Origin: Thermomonas carbonis
GTDB taxonomy: Bacteria; Pseudomonadota; Gammaproteobacteria; Xanthomonadales; Xanthomonadaceae
Length of the DNA stretch: 64,000 nt
NCBI RefSeq assembly: GCF_014396975.1
Contig: NZ_CP060719.1
Span: forward strand, 124,001-188,000
Direction: 5' to 3'
Part shown: positions 5,821 to 52,056 of the stretch, in pieces
Position numbering within the stretch: the stretch's first letter is position 1
Layout of the letters: the number at the start of each line of letters is the position of its first letter
Notes under the pieces: model-generated
The model's input: the letters and a program-made list of their open reading frames with translations, nothing else
The model's database searches: none
Told to the model about the DNA's origin: nothing
Made by a program: the position numbers and the translations under genes

Positions 5821-6420
5821 TTACGCGGCTCCCTGCGGATCAACGCCGATGACCACGGTGCTGTCGTTCTCGAAGTAGTACGGCGGTACGGGCAGGTTCG
5901 CCGGCGCCGGCTGCGCCTTGTACACGCGACCGGCGAGGTCGTAGCGCGACTTGTGGCAGGGGCAGAAATAGCCGCCCTTCCAGTCCGGGTCGAACGGCTG
6001 CGGCTTGACCTCCGGCAGGTGCTCCGGTGCGCAACCCAGGTGGGTGCACACGCCGACCAGCACGGAAATCTCCGGCTTGATCGAGCGCGAGGCGTTCTGC
6101 GCGTACTTCGGCTGCTGGTCGGCGTTGGCCGAACCCGGATCCGCAAGCAGGGAATCCAGTGACTTCATGGTGTCCAGCATCGCCTTGGAACGCTTGGCGA
6201 TGAAGATCGGCTGGCCACGCCAGTTGATCACCATCTGCTGGCCTTCGACCAGAGCGCTGAGATCCTGGCTCACCGGCGCGCCGGCGAAACGGGCCCGCGC
6301 ACTGGGGCTCCACGACTTGATGAAAGGCACCGCGGCGAACCCGGCTCCGACCGCACCGACCACTGCCGTGGTCGCGGTCAGGAACCTGCGCCGGCCGGTG
6401 TTGACCTCATGATTGGTCAT
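5821..6420 (-). CDS. petA: Ubiquinol-cytochrome c reductase, Rieske iron-sulfur subunit
   Basis: 199 residues. It takes electrons from ubiquinol at the Qo site and hands them to cytochrome c1. The N-terminus has a Tat-type signal anchor (GRRRFLTATTAVVGAVGAGF). The [2Fe-2S] site is formed by the two boxes CTHLGC (near residue 125) and CPCHKSRYD (near 153), supplying two Cys and two His ligands plus the disulfide pair. The second box has Lys where many Rieske proteins have Gly. It is the first gene of the petABC-sspAB set; the ~100 bp upstream is AT-richer and probably holds the promoter, and GGAG precedes the ATG. Confidence 0.97.
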   Translation of the reverse strand: MTNHEVNTGRRRFLTATTAVVGAVGAGFAAVPFIKSWSPSARARFAGAPVSQDLSALVEGQQMVINWRGQPIFIAKRSKAMLDTMKSLDSLLADPGSANADQQPKYAQNASRSIKPEISVLVGVCTHLGCAPEHLPEVKPQPFDPDWKGGYFCPCHKSRYDLAGRVYKAQPAPANLPVPPYYFENDSTVVIGVDPQGAA

Positions 6421-6519
6421 CCCGCACTCCGAAAATAAGCAAATACACGGCTGCGGCGCCTGGCGACGCGCTGGCGCACGCTGGCCGGCCGCAAAAGACG
6501 GGGAAGTGTAACGGAACGC

Positions 6520-7485
6520 TTAACGAGCCGACAATCCGCCCTGCGCCGGCGCGGCCACGGGATTGGCCAGACCGCGGTAGCGATCGGCCAGCAGGCCGAC
6601 TCGCTCCACGTAGCGCCGGGTCTCGCTGTAGGGCGGCACGCCGCCGTATTTGGCCACCGCGCCCGGCCCGGCGTTGTAGCCGGCCGCAGCCAAGGTCAGG
6701 TTGCCGTTGAAGCGCTTCAGCAGCATCGCCAGATAGCGCACCCCGCCGCCGATGTTCTGCACGGGATCGAATGCATCACTGACGCCGACCTCGCGGGCGG
6801 TGCCCGGCATCAGCTGCATCAGCCCCTGCGCGCCAACCCGCGACAGCGCGTTCGGGTTGAACGCGGATTCCGCATGAATGATCGCGCGGACGATGGACTC
6901 GTCGACCCCGTGCTCGCGCGCGGCGGCTGCGATCTCGGCCTGATACGCGGTGGTGTTCAGGCGCAGGGTGCGGAAATTGACCCCGGGCTTGGTCCCGCAG
7001 GCGTAGCAGGTTTCCATGTAGCTGTACTTGATCGTCCGCACCGAAGCCACCGCCATCCCGCGCGGGCGGGCGCTGCTGTAGGTGCGCACGCCGTCCTTGA
7101 TGTACGAATACACTTGGCCGTGGACGCGGCGCGGTGCAGCCGGGGTGGAGGATGCCACCACGGGAGCAGCCGGTACGCGGGCTTCCGCCGCGGTTGGCAC
7201 CGACATCCGGGCAGGCTGTGAAGCGGCCATCGTCGCCGGCGGCACGCCGCCGAGCGGCGGGGACTCGCTACTGCGGGACGACGTCCTGGATGGCGCAGCA
7301 ACGGCCTTGGGCTTGGGCGCGCGCTGCGCCTTGTAGCTGCCGACCAGCTTGCAACTGGCACCGGCGACCTTCTTGTTCGCGTATGTGGTGACGCCATCGC
7401 TGCCCTCGCAGCGATAGACATTCCCCGCCAGTGCGGGCGCACCCAGCAACAACGTCGTGAACAGCAGCGCGGGCCAAGCCTTCAT
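6520..7485 (-). CDS. Secreted lytic transglycosylase (SLT domain) with DUF4124 N-terminus
   Basis: 321 residues. It has a signal peptide (1-20), then a DUF4124-like segment (NVYRCEGSDGVTTYANK) and a low-complexity Ala/Pro/Ser linker (about 55-115). A second short DUF4124-like piece (VYSYIKDGVRTYSS) comes next, and the SLT lysozyme-like domain covers about 180-305. The catalytic Glu is in IIHAESAFNP, followed by SRVGAQGLMQLMPGTA and AAGYNAGPGAV, the standard family 1 motifs. It probably cleaves peptidoglycan to 1,6-anhydromuropeptides in the periplasm. Transcribed away from miaB; nothing nearby suggests a secretion system. Confidence 0.93.
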   Translation of the reverse strand: MKAWPALLFTTLLLGAPALAGNVYRCEGSDGVTTYANKKVAGASCKLVGSYKAQRAPKPKAVAAPSRTSSRSSESPPLGGVPPATMAASQPARMSVPTAAEARVPAAPVVASSTPAAPRRVHGQVYSYIKDGVRTYSSARPRGMAVASVRTIKYSYMETCYACGTKPGVNFRTLRLNTTAYQAEIAAAAREHGVDESIVRAIIHAESAFNPNALSRVGAQGLMQLMPGTAREVGVSDAFDPVQNIGGGVRYLAMLLKRFNGNLTLAAAGYNAGPGAVAKYGGVPPYSETRRYVERVGLLADRYRGLANPVAAPAQGGLSAR

Positions 7486-7640
7486 CGGCGCAGTCTCGCC
7501 CCTTCAATTTGCGATGACAAGTCCTTGATTTTCCTGAACGCGACAGCCCGCAGCGCGCGGCCAATGGCGACGTGCCGGGTGTTTGCTAAGCTCGCGCCCC
7601 CAACCCGGCCCGGATTAACCGCCGCGCCCCGGAGAACACC

Positions 7641-9014
7641 ATGAGCCAGCCCGAACCGCAGGTCGCGGACGCGCCCGCCCGCAAGAAGCTGTTCATCGAG
7701 ACCCACGGCTGCCAGATGAACGAGTACGACTCGGCGCGCATGGCCGATGTGCTGGCCGCGACTGACGGAATGGAATTGACCACGATCGCCGAAGAAGCCG
7801 ACGTGATCCTGGTCAACACCTGCTCGATCCGCGAAAAAGCCCAGGAAAAGGTGTTCAGTCGGATCGGCCGCTGGAAGTCGCTCAACAAGAACGGCGAAAA
7901 GGTCCTGATCGGGGTGGGTGGCTGCGTGGCCAGTCAGGAGGGTGCCGCCATCGTCAAACGCGCGCCCTACGTCGACCTGGTGTTCGGGCCGCAGACCCTG
8001 CATCGGCTGCCGGACCTGATCCGCGAGCGCCGCAGCACCGGCCGGCCGCAGGTCGACATCAGCTTCCCGGAGATCGAGAAGTTCGACCGCATGCCGGAAC
8101 CGCGCGCCGATGGGCCGTCGGCCTTCGTGTCGATCATGGAAGGCTGCAGCAAGTACTGCAGCTTCTGCGTGGTGCCCTACACCCGCGGCGAGGAAGTCAG
8201 CCGGCCGTTCGAGGACGTGCTGGTCGAAGTCGCGCAGCTCGCCGCGCAGGGTGTGCGCGAGGTCAACCTGCTCGGCCAGAACGTCAATGCCTATCGCGGG
8301 CCGTATGGGGATGGCGAGGTAGCCGACCTCGGCCTGCTGATCCGCACCATCGCCGAGATCGACGGCATCGGCCGGATCCGCTTCACCACCTCGCACCCGC
8401 TGGAGTTCAGCGATTCGCTGGTCGAGGCCTACCGCGACGTGCCCAAGCTGGCCAACTACCTGCATCTGCCGGTGCAGGCCGGCAGCGACCGCATCCTGGC
8501 GGCGATGAAGCGCGGCTACACCGCGATCGAGTTCAAGCAGAAGATCCGCAAGCTGCGCGCGGTGCGGCCGGACATTTCGATCAGTTCGGATTTCATCGTC
8601 GGCTTCCCCGGCGAGACCGACGCCGATTTCGACAAGACCATGAAACTGATCGAGGACGTCGGCTTCGACCAGAGTTACAGCTTCATCTATTCGCGTCGCC
8701 CGGGCACGCCGGCCGCGGATCTGCAGGACGACGTGAGCGATGCCGAGAAACACGCACGCCTGAATCGCCTGCAGCAACACATCAATGCGCACGCACTGGC
8801 GATCTCGCAGGCGATGATCGGCAGCGTGCAGACGGTGCTGGTGGAGGGCCCATCGAAGAAGGATCCGAACGAGCTCACCGGCAAGACCGAGAACATGCGC
8901 CCGGTGAATTTCGCCGGGCCGAAGCGACTGATCGGGCAGTTCGTCGATGTGGTGATCACCGAGGCGCTAAGCAATTCGTTGCGCGGCCGGGTGGCGACCG
9001 TCGACGCCACCTGA
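7641..9014 (+). CDS. miaB: tRNA-2-methylthio-N6-dimethylallyladenosine synthase
   Basis: 457-residue radical SAM methylthiotransferase. It adds the 2-methylthio group to i6A37 of tRNAs reading UNN codons. The N-terminal UPF0004 domain starts [16 protein letters not shown] and includes [12 protein letters not shown] and [10 protein letters not shown], giving three Cys for the second cluster. The radical SAM triad is CSKYCSFC (CxxxCxxC), followed by [15 protein letters not shown]-terminal TRAM domain ends the protein. GGAGA precedes the start. It heads the conserved miaB-phoH-ybeY-corC neighbourhood, here interrupted by an amidohydrolase on the other strand. Confidence 0.98.
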
Positions 9015-46365: not shown

Positions 46366-46425
46366 GAAAAAGGCGGGTCAGAGTGGGGTTTCCTGCAGGA
46401 AACCCCACTCTGACCCGCCTTTTTC
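46366..46425. repeat. Perfect 60-nt palindrome, also terminator-like
   Basis: Positions 46366-46395 are the exact reverse complement of 46396-46425, with no loop. The outer part is AAAAAGGCGGG/CCCGCCTTTTT, followed inward by GTCAGAGTGGGGTTT and a CCTGCAGG centre. The GGGTCAGAGT motif resembles sequences I associate with REP-associated tyrosine transposase (RAYT) repeats in Xanthomonadaceae. Placed between convergent genes, with A- and T-runs outside, it should also terminate transcription both ways. Confidence 0.85.
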
Positions 46426-46433
46426 GTTTCCGC

Positions 46434-47051
46434 CTAGCGACCGGACTGTTTTTCGAAGCGCTGCATCGCTTCGCGGATCAGCGCCTTAGCTTCGGCGGCA
46501 TCGCCGTAACCTGACAGGCGCACCGGGTTGCGACCCTTCGGCAGGTCCTTGTACACGCGGAAGAATGCTTCGATGCGATCCAACTCGACCTGCGGCAAGT
46601 CGGCGACGTCGCGGATCCCGGCATAGGTTGGATCGACCTTGTCGGTCGGCACGCCGATGATCTTCTGGTCGGCCTCGCCAGCGTCTTCCATGCGCAGCAC
46701 GCCGACCGGGCGGAAGCGGATCAGCACGCCCGGATGCAGTGCTTCGCGGGTAAGCACCAGCGCGTCCAGAGGGTCACCATCGCCAGCCAGGGTGCGCGGC
46801 AACGAGCCATAGTTGGCGGGGTACGCGACCGGCATCGACTGGAAGCGATCGACGAAAACCAGGCCTTCCTCGTTGATCTCGTACTTGGTGATGCTGCCGG
46901 CCGGGATCTCGACGGCCAGCACCGCGCTTTCGGGCGCGTCCTTCGCCTGCTCGGCGTGGAACGGATGGCGAACGTTCGGGTCGCCCGCCATCGCCGCGCC
47001 GACGCACAGCGAAAGCACCGCACCCACCGCACATCGGCTCATTCCCAGCAT
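46434..47051 (-). CDS. Exported family I inorganic pyrophosphatase
   Basis: 205 residues. The family I signature DGDPLDALVL is present, with EIPAGSITKYEIN, YPANYGSLPRT and a C-terminal FFRVYKDLPKGR. Active-site Asp residues look complete. Unlike the usual cytosolic Ppa, it starts with a signal peptide (MLGMSRCAVGAVLSLCVGAA in part, AMAGDP), so it should hydrolyse PPi in the periplasm. GGAG lies 6 nt before the ATG. It overlaps the upstream metallophosphoesterase gene by 13 nt, the last gene of a three-gene phosphorus operon. Confidence 0.92.
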   Translation of the reverse strand: MLGMSRCAVGAVLSLCVGAAMAGDPNVRHPFHAEQAKDAPESAVLAVEIPAGSITKYEINEEGLVFVDRFQSMPVAYPANYGSLPRTLAGDGDPLDALVLTREALHPGVLIRFRPVGVLRMEDAGEADQKIIGVPTDKVDPTYAGIRDVADLPQVELDRIEAFFRVYKDLPKGRNPVRLSGYGDAAEAKALIREAMQRFEKQSGR

Positions 47052-48409
47052 CGGTCGCTCCGTCCCTTCAATGTCTGCGCTCGGGGGCAGTCTCGCTCCG
47101 CGATACGGCCTTCCTGCACTTCCAGCAGGCGCTTGCCGGCAGCGCCGTCGTCGAGCAACTCGAACGCGTCGTACAGGCACCCGGTGGCGGTGCGCGCTTC
47201 GTAGCGCAGGCGCGTGCCATCGATGCGCACGACCTGGAACAACTGGGTGTCCTCCGCGACCGGGCGCATCGTCTCGCGTGCTTCCCGGGACAACCGGTAT
47301 TGCTTGGCACCGGCCACCGAGACCACGAACACCGGCGTCGGCGCGTCGCCCGCGCGTCGTCCGTACAAATGGTCGTGGCCCTGCAACACCAGGTCGACGC
47401 GATGCTTGCGAATCACCGGCAGCAGGTGTCCGCGCAGCAACACGTTGTCGCGCCCATCGCGCGGCGAGAAGAACGGCTGGTGCGTCATCACGATGCTCCA
47501 GCGATGCGGGTTCGCCCCCAGCACACCGTCCAGCCAGTGCGCCTGCGCACTCGCAGTGCCGAGGTCGAGTGCTGACGTGCCATCGATCACCGCGACCCGC
47601 ACGCCCTGGTAGTCGAACCAGTACGTCGTGCCCTTCGCACCGGCTGCGCCATTGCCGGGCAACGAAAACGTGAGCGGCCAGTGCGCACCGAGCACGCGGC
47701 GCTCCCGCGGCGTGTCCTCGAACTCCTCGAAGTATTCGTGATTGCCGATCGCCGGTGCCACCATCATCGAGGTCGGCAGCGACTCGTTCGCCTCGAACCA
47801 CTCGCCCCACTCGTTGTCGTCCTCGCCGTCGCCGCCGCTGACCAGGTCGCCGGCGAACAGCGCCAGCCTGGCGTCCGGCGCATGTCGCATCGCCTCCCGG
47901 ATTACCCGCGTGGTCAGGCTGGTGTTCTTGTTCTGGGTGTCGCCGAAATACAGCAAGGTCATTGGCGCTTCGGCGCGGGCTGCGGTGCGGGTGTGGTGCC
48001 AGGCGCTCCAGGTGCCGCCGCCCTGCACGCGCCAGGCGTACAGCGTGTCGGGCTGCAGGCCGTCGACATCCGCGCGGTGGTGGCGAGCCAGGCCGTTCTC
48101 GGTGCGCAGTTCGCGGCTCGACGATGCAATCTCGCGCGGCACGCCCATGTCGGGCGAATCGCCGGCCACCACGATCTGCAGCAACGGCGCATCGAGCTGC
48201 GCGCTGGTGCGCCATGCCACCGAGAAACCCGTCGATGCATCCTGCTCGGGCGACGCAACGATGCGATCGGGGAACACGCTCGGTGAAAAGCGGATCACAC
48301 CCGCCGGCACCCGCGTGTTCGGTTCGTGCTTGCGCGCCGCGTCCTGCGCCGCCAGCGGCAGGCACAAGAGCGCTGCCAGCACGACGGCAGCTTGCACGCT
48401 CAACTTCAA
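47039..48409 (-). CDS. Secreted purple-acid-phosphatase-like metallophosphoesterase
   Basis: 456 residues. A signal peptide (VQAAVVLAALLCLPLAAQ) is followed by a fibronectin-like domain (about 40-150, with GLQPDTLYAWRV). The calcineurin-like phosphatase domain has GDTQNKN, AGDLVSGGDG, GNHEYFEEF, TMTHQP-like VMTHQPFFS and GHDHLYGRR, a full metal-ligand set. This resembles purple acid phosphatases, which hydrolyse phosphomonoesters, including phytate in plants. The likely start is a TTG that overlaps the stop of the upstream lipoprotein gene (TTGA); a GTG at 48397 is the alternative. Confidence 0.9.
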   Translation of the reverse strand: MKLSVQAAVVLAALLCLPLAAQDAARKHEPNTRVPAGVIRFSPSVFPDRIVASPEQDASTGFSVAWRTSAQLDAPLLQIVVAGDSPDMGVPREIASSSRELRTENGLARHHRADVDGLQPDTLYAWRVQGGGTWSAWHHTRTAARAEAPMTLLYFGDTQNKNTSLTTRVIREAMRHAPDARLALFAGDLVSGGDGEDDNEWGEWFEANESLPTSMMVAPAIGNHEYFEEFEDTPRERRVLGAHWPLTFSLPGNGAAGAKGTTYWFDYQGVRVAVIDGTSALDLGTASAQAHWLDGVLGANPHRWSIVMTHQPFFSPRDGRDNVLLRGHLLPVIRKHRVDLVLQGHDHLYGRRAGDAPTPVFVVSVAGAKQYRLSREARETMRPVAEDTQLFQVVRIDGTRLRYEARTATGCLYDAFELLDDGAAGKRLLEVQEGRIAERDCPRAQTLKGRSDRCWE

Positions 48410-49542
48410 CGCGCGCACGCCGGCAGCTGCAAGGCCTTGGCGATATCGCGCCAATCGAACGCAGCCACGCCCAGGTCGAGATGCGAGGCGTAGAACGCGC
48501 CCTGCGGGAAGCGCGCGTCGCCGCGTTCGTCCAGCCACACCCCGTCGGTCAGGCCGGTCACCTTGCCGGCGAACGAACCGGCGTGCTGCAGGCTCCTGCG
48601 CTCGAACAGGTGGAACACGGTGCGGTCGGCGAACTGGTCGCTGGCCACCCACCAGCCGCTGCCGTCGGCGCAGCGCATCAGCGCGATGCCCTCGGCCTGG
48701 GCGACATACTGGCCATTGCCGACATCGCGACCGAGATAGCGGCCATGCAGGTCGTACTCGCGCAGGCGGGTGCCGGTGGGTACATCTTCCTCGGCGATCA
48801 GCAGGCGGTCGTTGGCTTCGTCGGCGAACAGCGACTCCGGCACGCGGATCGCGCCGGCCGCGCTGACATCGCCGAATGCGCCAGCGGCCTGCGCGCTCCA
48901 TTTGCCATCGGCCTGCAGCACCTCATAGCGACGGAAACGGCGATCGAGTTGCGCCAGCGGCGGGACGATATCGTCGCCCTTGGCATCTTCGCCGGCCATG
49001 TAGGCATCGCTGACCAGCACTTCGTAGCCCGCGCCCTTGCGCCGCACCCACAGGCCGTACGGCTGCTGCAACGCGTCGTCGCCGAACGCGAGCAGCGGGG
49101 TGAAGTCCGGCAACTGGAACATCTGCACGCGGCGGTTGTCGCGCTCGACCACGAACAGGAAACGGTCGTCGATGGTGGCGATGCCGTTCGGGCGCGACAG
49201 CTTGCCCAGTGCCTTGCCGCTGCCGCCGAGGGTGCGCAGGCGCTTGCCGGTGTCGCCGTCGTACACGACCAACTGGTCGGTGGCCTTGGCGCTCGCCACC
49301 AGCATCAGCCTGCCGTCCTGCAACCAGCTCGCCGGCGAATCGATGTTGTCGTCCGGCGTGGATGCGGTGACGAACGCCTCCGCGACCACCACATGCGGGA
49401 CGTCATGGTTCCGCAACAACACGTCGTCGGCTTCGTATTCGTCGGGCTCGCGATCCGCATCGACGATGGTCGCGCCGCCTGGCGCGCTTGCGCAGGCGGC
49501 GAGCAGCAACGGCAAGGCAAGCAGGGCGAGGCATTGGCGCAT
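48406..49542 (-). CDS. Phytase-like beta-propeller lipoprotein
   Basis: 378 residues. A lipoprotein signal (MRQCLALLALPLLLAACASA, lipobox LLAAC) is followed by a beta-propeller with the phytase-like opening TPDDNIDSPASWLQDGRLML, then TDQLVVYDGDTGKRL, SRPNGIATIDDRFLFVVERD (in parts) and QPYGLWV. The DxxxxPASW pattern resembles DDPAIW of Ca2+-dependent beta-propeller phytases. Those enzymes remove phosphate from Ca-phytate. NHL-type propellers are the alternative. First gene of an operon with a phosphatase and a pyrophosphatase; GGAGA precedes the ATG. Confidence 0.8.
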   Translation of the reverse strand: MRQCLALLALPLLLAACASAPGGATIVDADREPDEYEADDVLLRNHDVPHVVVAEAFVTASTPDDNIDSPASWLQDGRLMLVASAKATDQLVVYDGDTGKRLRTLGGSGKALGKLSRPNGIATIDDRFLFVVERDNRRVQMFQLPDFTPLLAFGDDALQQPYGLWVRRKGAGYEVLVSDAYMAGEDAKGDDIVPPLAQLDRRFRRYEVLQADGKWSAQAAGAFGDVSAAGAIRVPESLFADEANDRLLIAEEDVPTGTRLREYDLHGRYLGRDVGNGQYVAQAEGIALMRCADGSGWWVASDQFADRTVFHLFERRSLQHAGSFAGKVTGLTDGVWLDERGDARFPQGAFYASHLDLGVAAFDWRDIAKALQLPACAR

Positions 49543-49578
49543 CAGGCGGTTCTCCGGACGGATGTTGCAAACCGCGAT

Positions 49579-49612
49579 GTTGTACGCGGCGTGGATGACG
49601 CTTTCGTGTCAC
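49579..49612 (-). promoter_or_regulatory. Pho-box-like promoter for the phytase-like operon
   Basis: On the minus strand, units GTGACAC (49612-49606) and GCGTCAT (49601-49595) are spaced by GAAA (7-4-7), each matching CTGTCAT/C at 5 of 7. Ten bases later comes TACAAC (49584-49579), a possible -10 at the spacing used by E. coli phoA. It is weaker than the plus-strand array 20 bp away. Confidence 0.45.
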
Positions 49613-49630
49613 CGCCACCGCGCCGACTGA

Positions 49631-49686
49631 CTGTCATGCAGATGGCATCCCGCTGTCATCGTTCGGCCATCCCGCTTACTTACAAA
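49631..49686 (+). promoter_or_regulatory. Tandem Pho boxes upstream of the TonB-dependent receptor
   Basis: Four 7-bp units start at 49631, 49642, 49653 and 49664, exactly 11 bp apart: CTGTCAT, ATGGCAT, CTGTCAT, CGGCCAT. Units 1 and 3 equal the Pho-box consensus; units 2 and 4 match at 5 of 7. Ten bases after unit 4 lies TACAAA (49681-49686), a plausible -10, which is the phoA-type spacing. This is two adjacent PhoB sites by the standard model. The receptor ATG follows 33 bp later. Confidence 0.78.
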
Positions 49687-49719
49687 GGCGCGTTCATTTA
49701 CGCAACGGGACTCCATTCG

Positions 49720-52056
49720 ATGAAACGCACTGCCTTGGCCACCAGCCTGTCACGAGCACTGTTCTGCGTGGCCCTGCTGCCGGCCGGCTTCGCCTCCGCC
49801 CAGCAGGTCGCACCGGATGGCGGCAACGCCACCGACCTGACCGCGACCGACCCCAAGAACCTGGACAAGGTCGTCGTGCAGGGCGAGATCACCTACCGCA
49901 ACCGCACCGAAGACACCGCGCCGGTGCTGCGCTACGACCTCGAATACTTCCAGCGCTTCGAGCCGAACACCGTTGGCGACATGCTCAAGCGCGTGCCGGG
50001 CGTGGCCTTCGTCGGCTCCGACATCATGGAGTTCGACGGCGCGATGATGCGCGGCATGGCCGCCGGCTACACCCAGGTGCTGGTCAACGGCAAGAAGGTG
50101 CCGGGCGCGGGCGACGACCGTTCGTTCTGGGTCGACCGCATCCCCGCCGAGATGGTCGACCACGTCGAGATCCTGCGCAGCAACAGCGCCAACCGCAGTG
50201 GCGACGCGATGGCCGGCACCATCAACATCGTCCTGCGCGACGCCTACGTGTTCGACGGCAGCTACATCCGCGTCGGCGCCAACCGCTGGTACGACGGCGA
50301 AATCAACCCGACCTTCGGCGCGGTCACCAGCGGCGATTTCCTCGGCGGCCGCATCCTCGCCGGCATCAACGTGCAGGATCGCTACCGCGCCAAGATCAAA
50401 CGCTCCGACCGCTACGCCGATCCGTCGATGGACGAACTGGTCAGCTGGGAAGACCAGAACGAGGTCAAGGACGGCCGAGACTACTCGGGCAACCTGTCGT
50501 GGACCACCGACGTCGGCGAGACCGGCCGCTTCGGCATCGACGGCTTCTTCGTCAAGACCGATCGCGATGTCACCGAGGTCTCGCATGAAGTCGAGTACGA
50601 CGACGACGTGATCGAGTCCAATGTCCCCGGCTTCAACCCGGTCGACCAGGTGAACTGGGGCATCGGTGCCGAGTACCGCTTCGACATGGCCGGCGGCACC
50701 ACCTCGTTCGACCTCGACCATGCGCGCTTCGAAGACAACAGCGCCGTGCGCGAAGAGAAGCACGAGTACGTCAACGGCGAGTGGGACGCCTCCGAGGCCG
50801 AAGCGCAGTCGGTGGATGCCGTCGACAAGGAAACCGGCTTCACCCTCGCCCACAAGCGCGCGCTCGGTGCTGCCGAACTGGAGTTCGGCGTGGACTGGCG
50901 CAGCAAGAAGCGCGACATCACCTACACCAACTTCGAGTGGGAAGCCGACAACGAAGGCGACCCGGTGGTCTACGAACTCGACGGCAGCATCGGCTCGCTG
51001 ATCGAGGAGACTCGCGTCGACCCGTACGTGATGGTGTCCGGCAAGCGCGGCGCGTTCGCATGGGAAGCCGGCCTGCGCTACGAGACCACCAAGTCCGACA
51101 TCCGCTACCGCGAGGACGGCGAAGCCGAAGGTTCCGCGAATCGCGACTACAACAGCCTGCTGCCCTCGCTGCACCTGAAGTGGGACCTGGACGAGGCGAC
51201 GCGCATCAATTTCTCGCTGGCGAAAAGCATCAAGCGGCCGAACTTCAACGAGTTGGTGCCGGCAGTTCTGGACGGCGAGTACGGCGACAACGACTACATC
51301 GGCAACCCGCTGCTGGAACCGGAAAGCGCGAACGGCCTCGACCTCGGTTTCGAGCGCCGGCTGGGCAAGAGCGGCGTGGTCGGGGTGAACTTCTTCTACC
51401 GCGACGTGAAGAACCTGATCGAACTGGTCAACACCGGCGAGTGGAGCGAGGACGCGCAGGACAACTACGAGGACGACCTCGAGGAATTCCTCGACGATAA
51501 TCCCGGCGCGAGCGAGGACGACTTCGAGTTCGAGCCGGAAAGCTGGCTGTTCACTTCGGCCAATGTCGGCGACGGCAAGGTCTACGGCGTGGAATTCGAC
51601 CTCTCGACGCCGCTGACCGCACTGGGCCTGCCGGATACCGGCGTGTTCCTCAACTATTCCTGGCTCGACAGCAAGGTCGAGGACTTCATCGGCAACCGCC
51701 GCTTCAACGACCAGGCGCGCAGCGTGTACAACGTCGGCTTCATCCATGACATGCCGGCGTTGCAGGCCTCGTTCGGCGCGACCTACCGCAAGCAGGGCGA
51801 CGCCTTCAGCCGGATCGTCGCCGAGGAAGTGACGGTCAAGTACGGCGCCGACCTGGAGGTCTTCGTCGAGAAGCGCTTCGGCGAGACGGTGTCGCTGCGG
51901 CTGAGCGCGGCCAACCTGCTGGATGCGTCCAAGGACGAGTTCTTCAACAAGTTCGACAACCTGGACGACCAGATCGATCGCGATTTCGACGAGTACGAAG
52001 TTGAAAGCGAGCAGGCCGGGCCGAGCTACCAGGTGGTGCTGCGCTGGGCATTCTGA
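49720..52056 (+). CDS. TonB-dependent outer-membrane receptor, probably phosphate-starvation induced
   Basis: 778 residues. A signal peptide (about 1-28) and a TonB-box-like stretch (LDKVVVQGE) are followed by the plug domain (about 60-180; [44 protein letters not shown]). The 22-strand barrel ends in the terminal Phe of VVLRWAF. There is no N-terminal signalling domain. One extracellular loop (about residues 573-607) is strongly acidic. Tandem Pho boxes upstream and a divergent phytase-like/phosphatase/pyrophosphatase operon suggest uptake of an organic or metal-bound phosphate; the ligand is inference. Confidence 0.93.

Follow-up and report, generated by a model that had tools for sequence, protein, structure and literature searches.

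A locus of four genes in Thermomonas carbonis is best explained, as judged from its sequence, as a PhoB-controlled phosphorus-utilisation locus, probably for the uptake and hydrolysis of phytate-type compounds. It encodes a TonB-dependent receptor and, divergently, a lipoprotein, a metallophosphoesterase and an inorganic pyrophosphatase (PPase), and it lies in a stretch of 64,000 nucleotides, hereafter the window (positions 124,001 to 188,000 of contig NZ_CP060719.1; G000:C1:124001-188000 in our numbering), within a single-contig genome of 3.46 Mb. The view that the locus is a variant of the known pairing of a receptor with a phytase, conserved and with a Pho-type promoter, is well supported. 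Its features, in positions of the window, are as follows.

49720..52056, plus strand: TonB-dependent outer-membrane receptor (type I of the locus), 778 aa, with Plug and barrel domains
48406..49542, minus strand: divergent outer-membrane lipoprotein resembling beta-propeller phytases, 378 aa
47039..48418, minus strand: exported metallophosphoesterase resembling purple acid phosphatases (PAP-like), 459 aa, GTG start, overlapping the lipoprotein gene by 13 nt
46434..47051, minus strand: exported family I inorganic pyrophosphatase, 205 aa, overlapping the PAP-like gene by 13 nt
49632..49675, plus strand: array of four Pho-box-type repeats, 11 bp each, preceding the receptor gene, found by motif scoring
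49590..49611, minus strand: weaker Pho-box-type pair facing the lipoprotein-PAP-PPase operon, score 12.2
46367..46424, unstranded: palindromic two-way terminator that separates the operon from a convergent aminotransferase gene, 20 pairs followed by a T-run on both strands

The open reading frames were re-checked, and the gene order, the strands and the divergence from the receptor gene are those given in the initial annotation, which had been made from the letters alone. The overlaps of a few bases that it reported between minus-strand neighbours are 13 nt each with the assigned starts, which suggests one transcript and translational coupling of the three genes. The operon is closed by the terminator, whose ends were read off the sequence. 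Each of the four products begins with a signal-like hydrophobic stretch (maximum Kyte-Doolittle hydropathy of 2.26-2.81), the measure by which export was judged, and all four are accordingly taken to be exported, as had been proposed. Pfam also agrees with the domain calls for all four, the receptor matching the plug PF07715 with 52 bits and the barrel PF00593 with 111.5 bits. The terminator is a 58-bp palindrome; elsewhere in the genome the pattern of its arm, GGGTCAGAGTGNNNTTTC, recurs at a single site, likewise as an inverted pair (G000:C1:61487-61528).

The four genes are conserved together. A scan of named genomes yielded 45 loci, where the receptor is of the window type (at least 45% identity) in 34, of a distant kind, type II, in nine, and missing in two (L031 and L032, both with short upstream sequence). 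The PAP-like gene is present in 24 loci and the PPase gene likewise in 24; receptor, lipoprotein, PAP-like enzyme and PPase occur together in 23, including 14 with the window receptor type, among them L039, where the genes are broken into pieces. A lack of joint conservation, named in the initial annotation as evidence that would count against it, was therefore not seen. In an even sample of 149 genomes of the taxonomic family, the lipoprotein family was found in 119 (48 of 54 genera), the PAP-like enzyme in 32, some kind of PPase match in 146 and an exported-type PPase in 26, the exported type being assigned on score, namely to every row above 230 bits and to the partial row G093 at 139 bits. 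Neighbourhoods were compared at 39 lipoprotein places, drawn from the genomes with a PAP-like gene or an exported-type PPase plus a few others rather than from all 119, with the PAP-like gene entered once per genome, which excluded a second fragment in G092. Within 3 kb of a lipoprotein gene and on the same strand lie 29 of the 32 PAP-like genes, and 25 of the 26 exported-type PPases are near a PAP-like or lipoprotein gene; the remaining one (G063; locus L088) occupies the same chromosomal place next to a type I receptor. Chance clustering was rejected on the strength of this proximity and of the conservation of the set across the 45 loci. Among 369 genomes of the class, four matched at 1e-20, all in the window's own family, and two named Tahibacter loci, one labelled Rhodanobacteraceae in the tree, suggest that the spread is slightly wider than the family under another taxonomy.

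The set is also modular. In several genera the locus has the same flanks by eye, namely queA, an Lrp-type regulator and an aminotransferase gene on one side and a uracil phosphoribosyltransferase gene on the other, and the parts vary between them: L089 has receptor, lipoprotein and PPase; L090, from the same genus, has a type II receptor, lipoprotein and PAP-like enzyme with no PPase nearby; L085 and L087 have a type II receptor, PAP-like enzyme and PPase with no lipoprotein there; and L088 has only receptor and PPase. Some genomes with a reduced locus carry a lipoprotein paralogue elsewhere. Consequently, the parts travel together, and no enzyme strictly needs another alongside. A fixed stepwise cascade ending in removal of pyrophosphate, as had been envisaged, does not agree with relatives that keep lipoprotein and PPase without the PAP-like enzyme, PAP-like enzyme and PPase without the lipoprotein, or receptor and PPase alone. 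A stepwise pathway for a single substrate is weakened likewise, as the PAP-like enzyme, the lipoprotein or both are missing from syntenic loci that keep the rest.

In the shared intergenic region, the cores TGTCAT, TGGCAT, TGTCAT and GGCCAT are spaced by exactly 11 bp. Scored with half-site weights taken from a consensus, the array is not equalled by any of 712 background tiles of the window, for two, three or four units, and the Pho-box array already noted there is thus real. The minus-strand pair scores below the best background tile (12.7), and a similar minus-strand pair is found in relatives, such as L013, L016, L019 and L025. For 32 of the 34 type I loci, that is, leaving out the broken L039 and L040, whose receptor is 4 kb away, the shared region was compared with local tiles of the same length, best strand taken, and it ranked in the top 5% in all 32. 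A strict two-unit pattern has 10 sites in the genome and two for the reversed control. Apart from the locus itself, one site precedes the second pstS in the pst cluster (L100; gene identity by eye), one lies about 115 bp upstream of the longest possible start of a large TonB-dependent receptor gene (L097, G000:C1:114000-122000, site 5292, minus strand), and one before a glycosyltransferase gene (L099, G000:C1:2641000-2650000, site 5091, minus strand), where it would fit membrane-lipid remodelling at low phosphate. Two of the 10 are copies in repeated DNA (L101, L102), and four (L098 twice, L100 and L103) are at genes without an evident phosphorus role, again identified by eye. In L100 (G000:C1:3397000-3415000), a TonB-receptor-like gene and a porin-like gene, named by eye, adjoin two pstS copies and the pst cluster (6350-8923, plus strand). 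The divergent promoter is apparently of the phosphate-starvation (PhoB) type. It speaks against a locus for metal acquisition, in which the receptor would import iron or calcium phytate for its metal and the phosphatases would strip the chelator; this is very improbable, even though phytate chelates metals and the receptor sequence has acidic stretches, and with the one Fur consensus tried, no Fur-like site was matched in the region at three mismatches.

The ligand of the receptor is most likely phytate or a relative; the best evidence for this, which is indirect, is the kinship of the receptor. In a tree of 44 chosen rows, the window receptor clade (12 rows, support 100/99) is sister to three receptors linked to canonical phytases (100/100), and the random receptor rows fall outside both clades; the type II receptors form two clades, one of which is joined by the fourth phytase-linked receptor (98/92, on a long branch). 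The sample comprised 11 type I relatives, 10 type II and four phytase-linked receptors, chosen from 63 matches, with proteins above 950 aa trimmed to their last 900. The 18 random rows, a part of the receptors only (the genome has 30 Plug matches), came from 16 fetched receptor loci, leaving out L120 and L121; two of these loci gave overlapping frames, and some random rows are probably shadow frames, with odd composition and very long branches. Among the seven genomes whose canonical phytase scores over 200 bits, three have the phytase-adjacent receptor as the nearest relative: in G063 and G072 only the receptor of their own locus matches the window receptor better, and in G128 the phytase-adjacent one is the best match of all, these genomes having 59, 28 and 17 Plug matches, respectively. 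In G010, G034 and G040 the next match lies away from the canonical phytase, and G123 has none. An adjoining receptor was found at four of the five canonical phytase loci whose neighbours were examined (L091-L094 and L104). At L091 and L092, the canonical phytases have two domains in about 700 aa and are encoded divergently from the receptor gene, and two adjacent canonical-phytase matches occur in five of the seven genomes carrying such a phytase.

The lipoprotein is phytase-like at the level of fold. In the PF02333 and NHL comparisons that the initial annotation proposed, it scores 22.6 bits against the Phytase model, above the curated cut-off of 21, in a weak and partial match (profile positions 206-295 of 375), and 13.1 bits against NHL, under the cut-off of 20; a six-frame search of the genome with PF02333 did not report the gene. 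The model is matched at E 0.01 by 28 of 33 aligned family members, and in these 33, the window's own among them, the lipid-anchor Cys17 (LLAAC) is invariant. By fold comparison the protein is a six-bladed phytase propeller, with phytase as the top match and NHL structures close behind. A propeller related to NHL alone was set aside, in view of the low Pfam score and the top fold match. Most named relatives, the closest being from Thermomonas, are annotated as phytases, and the named Xanthomonas "phytase" proteins of 363-389 aa are members of this family. It is, however, no canonical beta-propeller phytase. The signatures of that class are DA[ATE]DDPA[ILV]W and NN[VI]D[ILV]R[YDQ] in the portion of the source considered (PMC4017775), and both are broken here, the first reading DNIDSPASW and the second lacking NNVD (RPNGIATID). 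By alignment, nine of 13 phosphate- and calcium-site positions are kept (D55, K76, R122, Y159, E211, E227, E260, Q279 and D314) and four are not (D56, K179, D258 and D308). The lost carboxylates belong to the active site, where Ser69 and Gln282 now stand, and there is an insertion near residue 180. Compared with PF02333 and the Bacillus enzymes (3amr, 1poo, 1qlg), the lipoprotein thus differs in its signatures and in this insertion, as well as in an NHL-like early blade and the lipid anchor. Nine phosphate- and metal-site residues are invariant over 81 rows; these rows, like those used below for the PAP-like enzyme (44) and the PPase (30), include the window gene and some genes twice as different loci. 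The lipoprotein paralogue adjoins genes of methionine-biosynthesis type in L077, L078, L080, L081 and L082, and in L078 and L080 genes for a small exported protein and a release-factor-3-like product come next.

These features invite two other readings. In Bacteroidetes, surface propeller lipoproteins cap or feed B12 receptors, and the lipoprotein here could mainly bind substrate in this manner, leaving hydrolysis to the PAP-like enzyme. The lipid anchor, the partial loss of catalytic positions and its occurrence with a type I receptor in 34 of the 45 loci, in several genera without the other enzymes, agree with such a role; the nine invariant site residues seem more than binding alone needs, and we consider it improbable. 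The other reading, possible but rather unlikely, is general Pho-regulated scavenging of phosphoesters, where the receptor imports nucleotides, sugar phosphates or condensed phosphate, the enzymes act on separate substrates and the propeller is no phytase in vivo. The separability of the enzymes among relatives, the three receptor clades that serve the locus, the missing signatures and the action of PPases, as known for the family, on pyrophosphate rather than phosphomonoesters all suit it. Against it are the phytase as nearest fold, the sister relation of the type I clade to phytase-linked receptors and the fourth such receptor, which joins a type II clade.

The call of a purple-acid-phosphatase-like enzyme holds for the domains and the metal motifs. 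Both PAP domains are present (Metallophos PF00149, 57.5 bits; Pur_ac_phosph_N PF16656, 51 bits), and the motifs GD, GDL, GNHE, HQP and GHDH occur in 44 of 44 rows. However, the tyrosine of GDxxY, which we take to be the Fe(III)-binding residue of purple acid phosphatases, is replaced in every row (Ser in 42, Ala in two; the window's protein reads GDLVS), as also in an alignment to 1xzw, and the protein is therefore classed as a PAP-like metallophosphoesterase rather than a true purple acid phosphatase. Profile matches to 1xzw (E 1e-12) and 6git (E 5.3e-9), the latter presumably the wheat purple acid phytase, together with the N-terminal PAP domain, mark the relation to these enzymes, from which the absent tyrosine separates it.

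The PPase matches PF00719 with 165.1 bits and keeps DGDPLD (the D-x-D-P-x-D core) and the other active-site residues; each residue checked is missing from at most one of the covered rows. The signal peptide noted previously is seen as a signal-like N-terminus, which recurs in 25 of the 27 relatives with a start found; the other two are the broken L039 and L007, the latter possibly with a wrong start. In this genome, a cytoplasmic paralogue of the same family (G000:C1:518751-519254; 49% identity) differs in having no signal-like N-terminus. One could suppose that the lipoprotein is a new class of propeller phosphohydrolase acting on pyrophosphate-bearing substrates from the receptor, such as inositol pyrophosphates or condensed phosphate-metal complexes, and releasing pyrophosphate. 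The altered active site would then account for the new activity, and the released pyrophosphate for the recruitment of a cytoplasmic-type pyrophosphatase to the periplasm; we hold this to be a long way from probable.

Overall, the initial interpretation is partly supported: the Pho-type promoter, the conserved set, the phytase fold and a receptor with phytase-linked receptors among its nearest relatives stand. It is qualified in that the lipoprotein is no canonical phytase, the second enzyme is no true purple acid phosphatase and a fixed cascade is not supported. In the preferred explanation, uptake and hydrolysis of phytate-type compounds under PhoB, exhaustion of phosphate would lead PhoB, probably, to bind the 11-bp repeats seen in the divergent promoter and turn on both sides. 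The receptor, by its kinship with phytase-linked receptors, would import either phytate or an inositol phosphate that is lower or metal-bound. The lipoprotein, held at the outer membrane, may remove phosphates with its phytase fold and the site residues that it mostly retains, and the PAP-like enzyme may strip further phosphates from the products left by propeller phytases or from other phosphomonoesters. The PPase, whose family chemistry is known, would convert periplasmic pyrophosphate to phosphate, if such a source exists there, and free phosphate would enter through the Pst system, with the same motif at the pst promoter. The enzymes would then be parallel, partly exchangeable releasers of phosphate rather than obligatory steps.

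Three published cases come close, each considered here from a portion of its source. In Citromicrobium bathyomarinum JL354, a TonB-dependent receptor gene is beside a phytase gene, and phytic acid was proposed as the receptor substrate (PMC3400609). The likeness is the receptor next to a phytase gene; in the window locus, the phytase-like protein comes from a divergent lipoprotein branch and shares an operon, preceded by Pho boxes, with the PAP-like enzyme and the exported PPase. The PhoB regulon of Caulobacter likewise contains TonB-dependent receptors, a phytase and phosphatases, with no such four-gene locus in the part of the account considered (PMC11208175). Xanthomonas oryzae needs its secreted PhyA to grow when phytic acid is the sole phosphate source (PMC9403785), and we infer that PhyA belongs to the lipoprotein family described above. 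Nothing in the open-licence literature surveyed, by title or opening of the abstract, describes the four-gene set, an exported PPase accompanying it or a swap of receptor types, which does not in itself show absence in print.

Tallies of "phyA" in genomes like these could be misleading, because the lipoprotein family lacks the motifs of the tested enzymes and, away from the receptor locus, none of the six paralogue loci examined is at phosphorus genes. In soil, phytate is among the main stores of organic phosphorus. The locus bundles a candidate outer-membrane receptor for phytate, a putative new branch of phytases and an exported pyrophosphatase, and its four exported proteins probably enable bacteria of soil and water to take up organic phosphate of the phytate type and degrade it.

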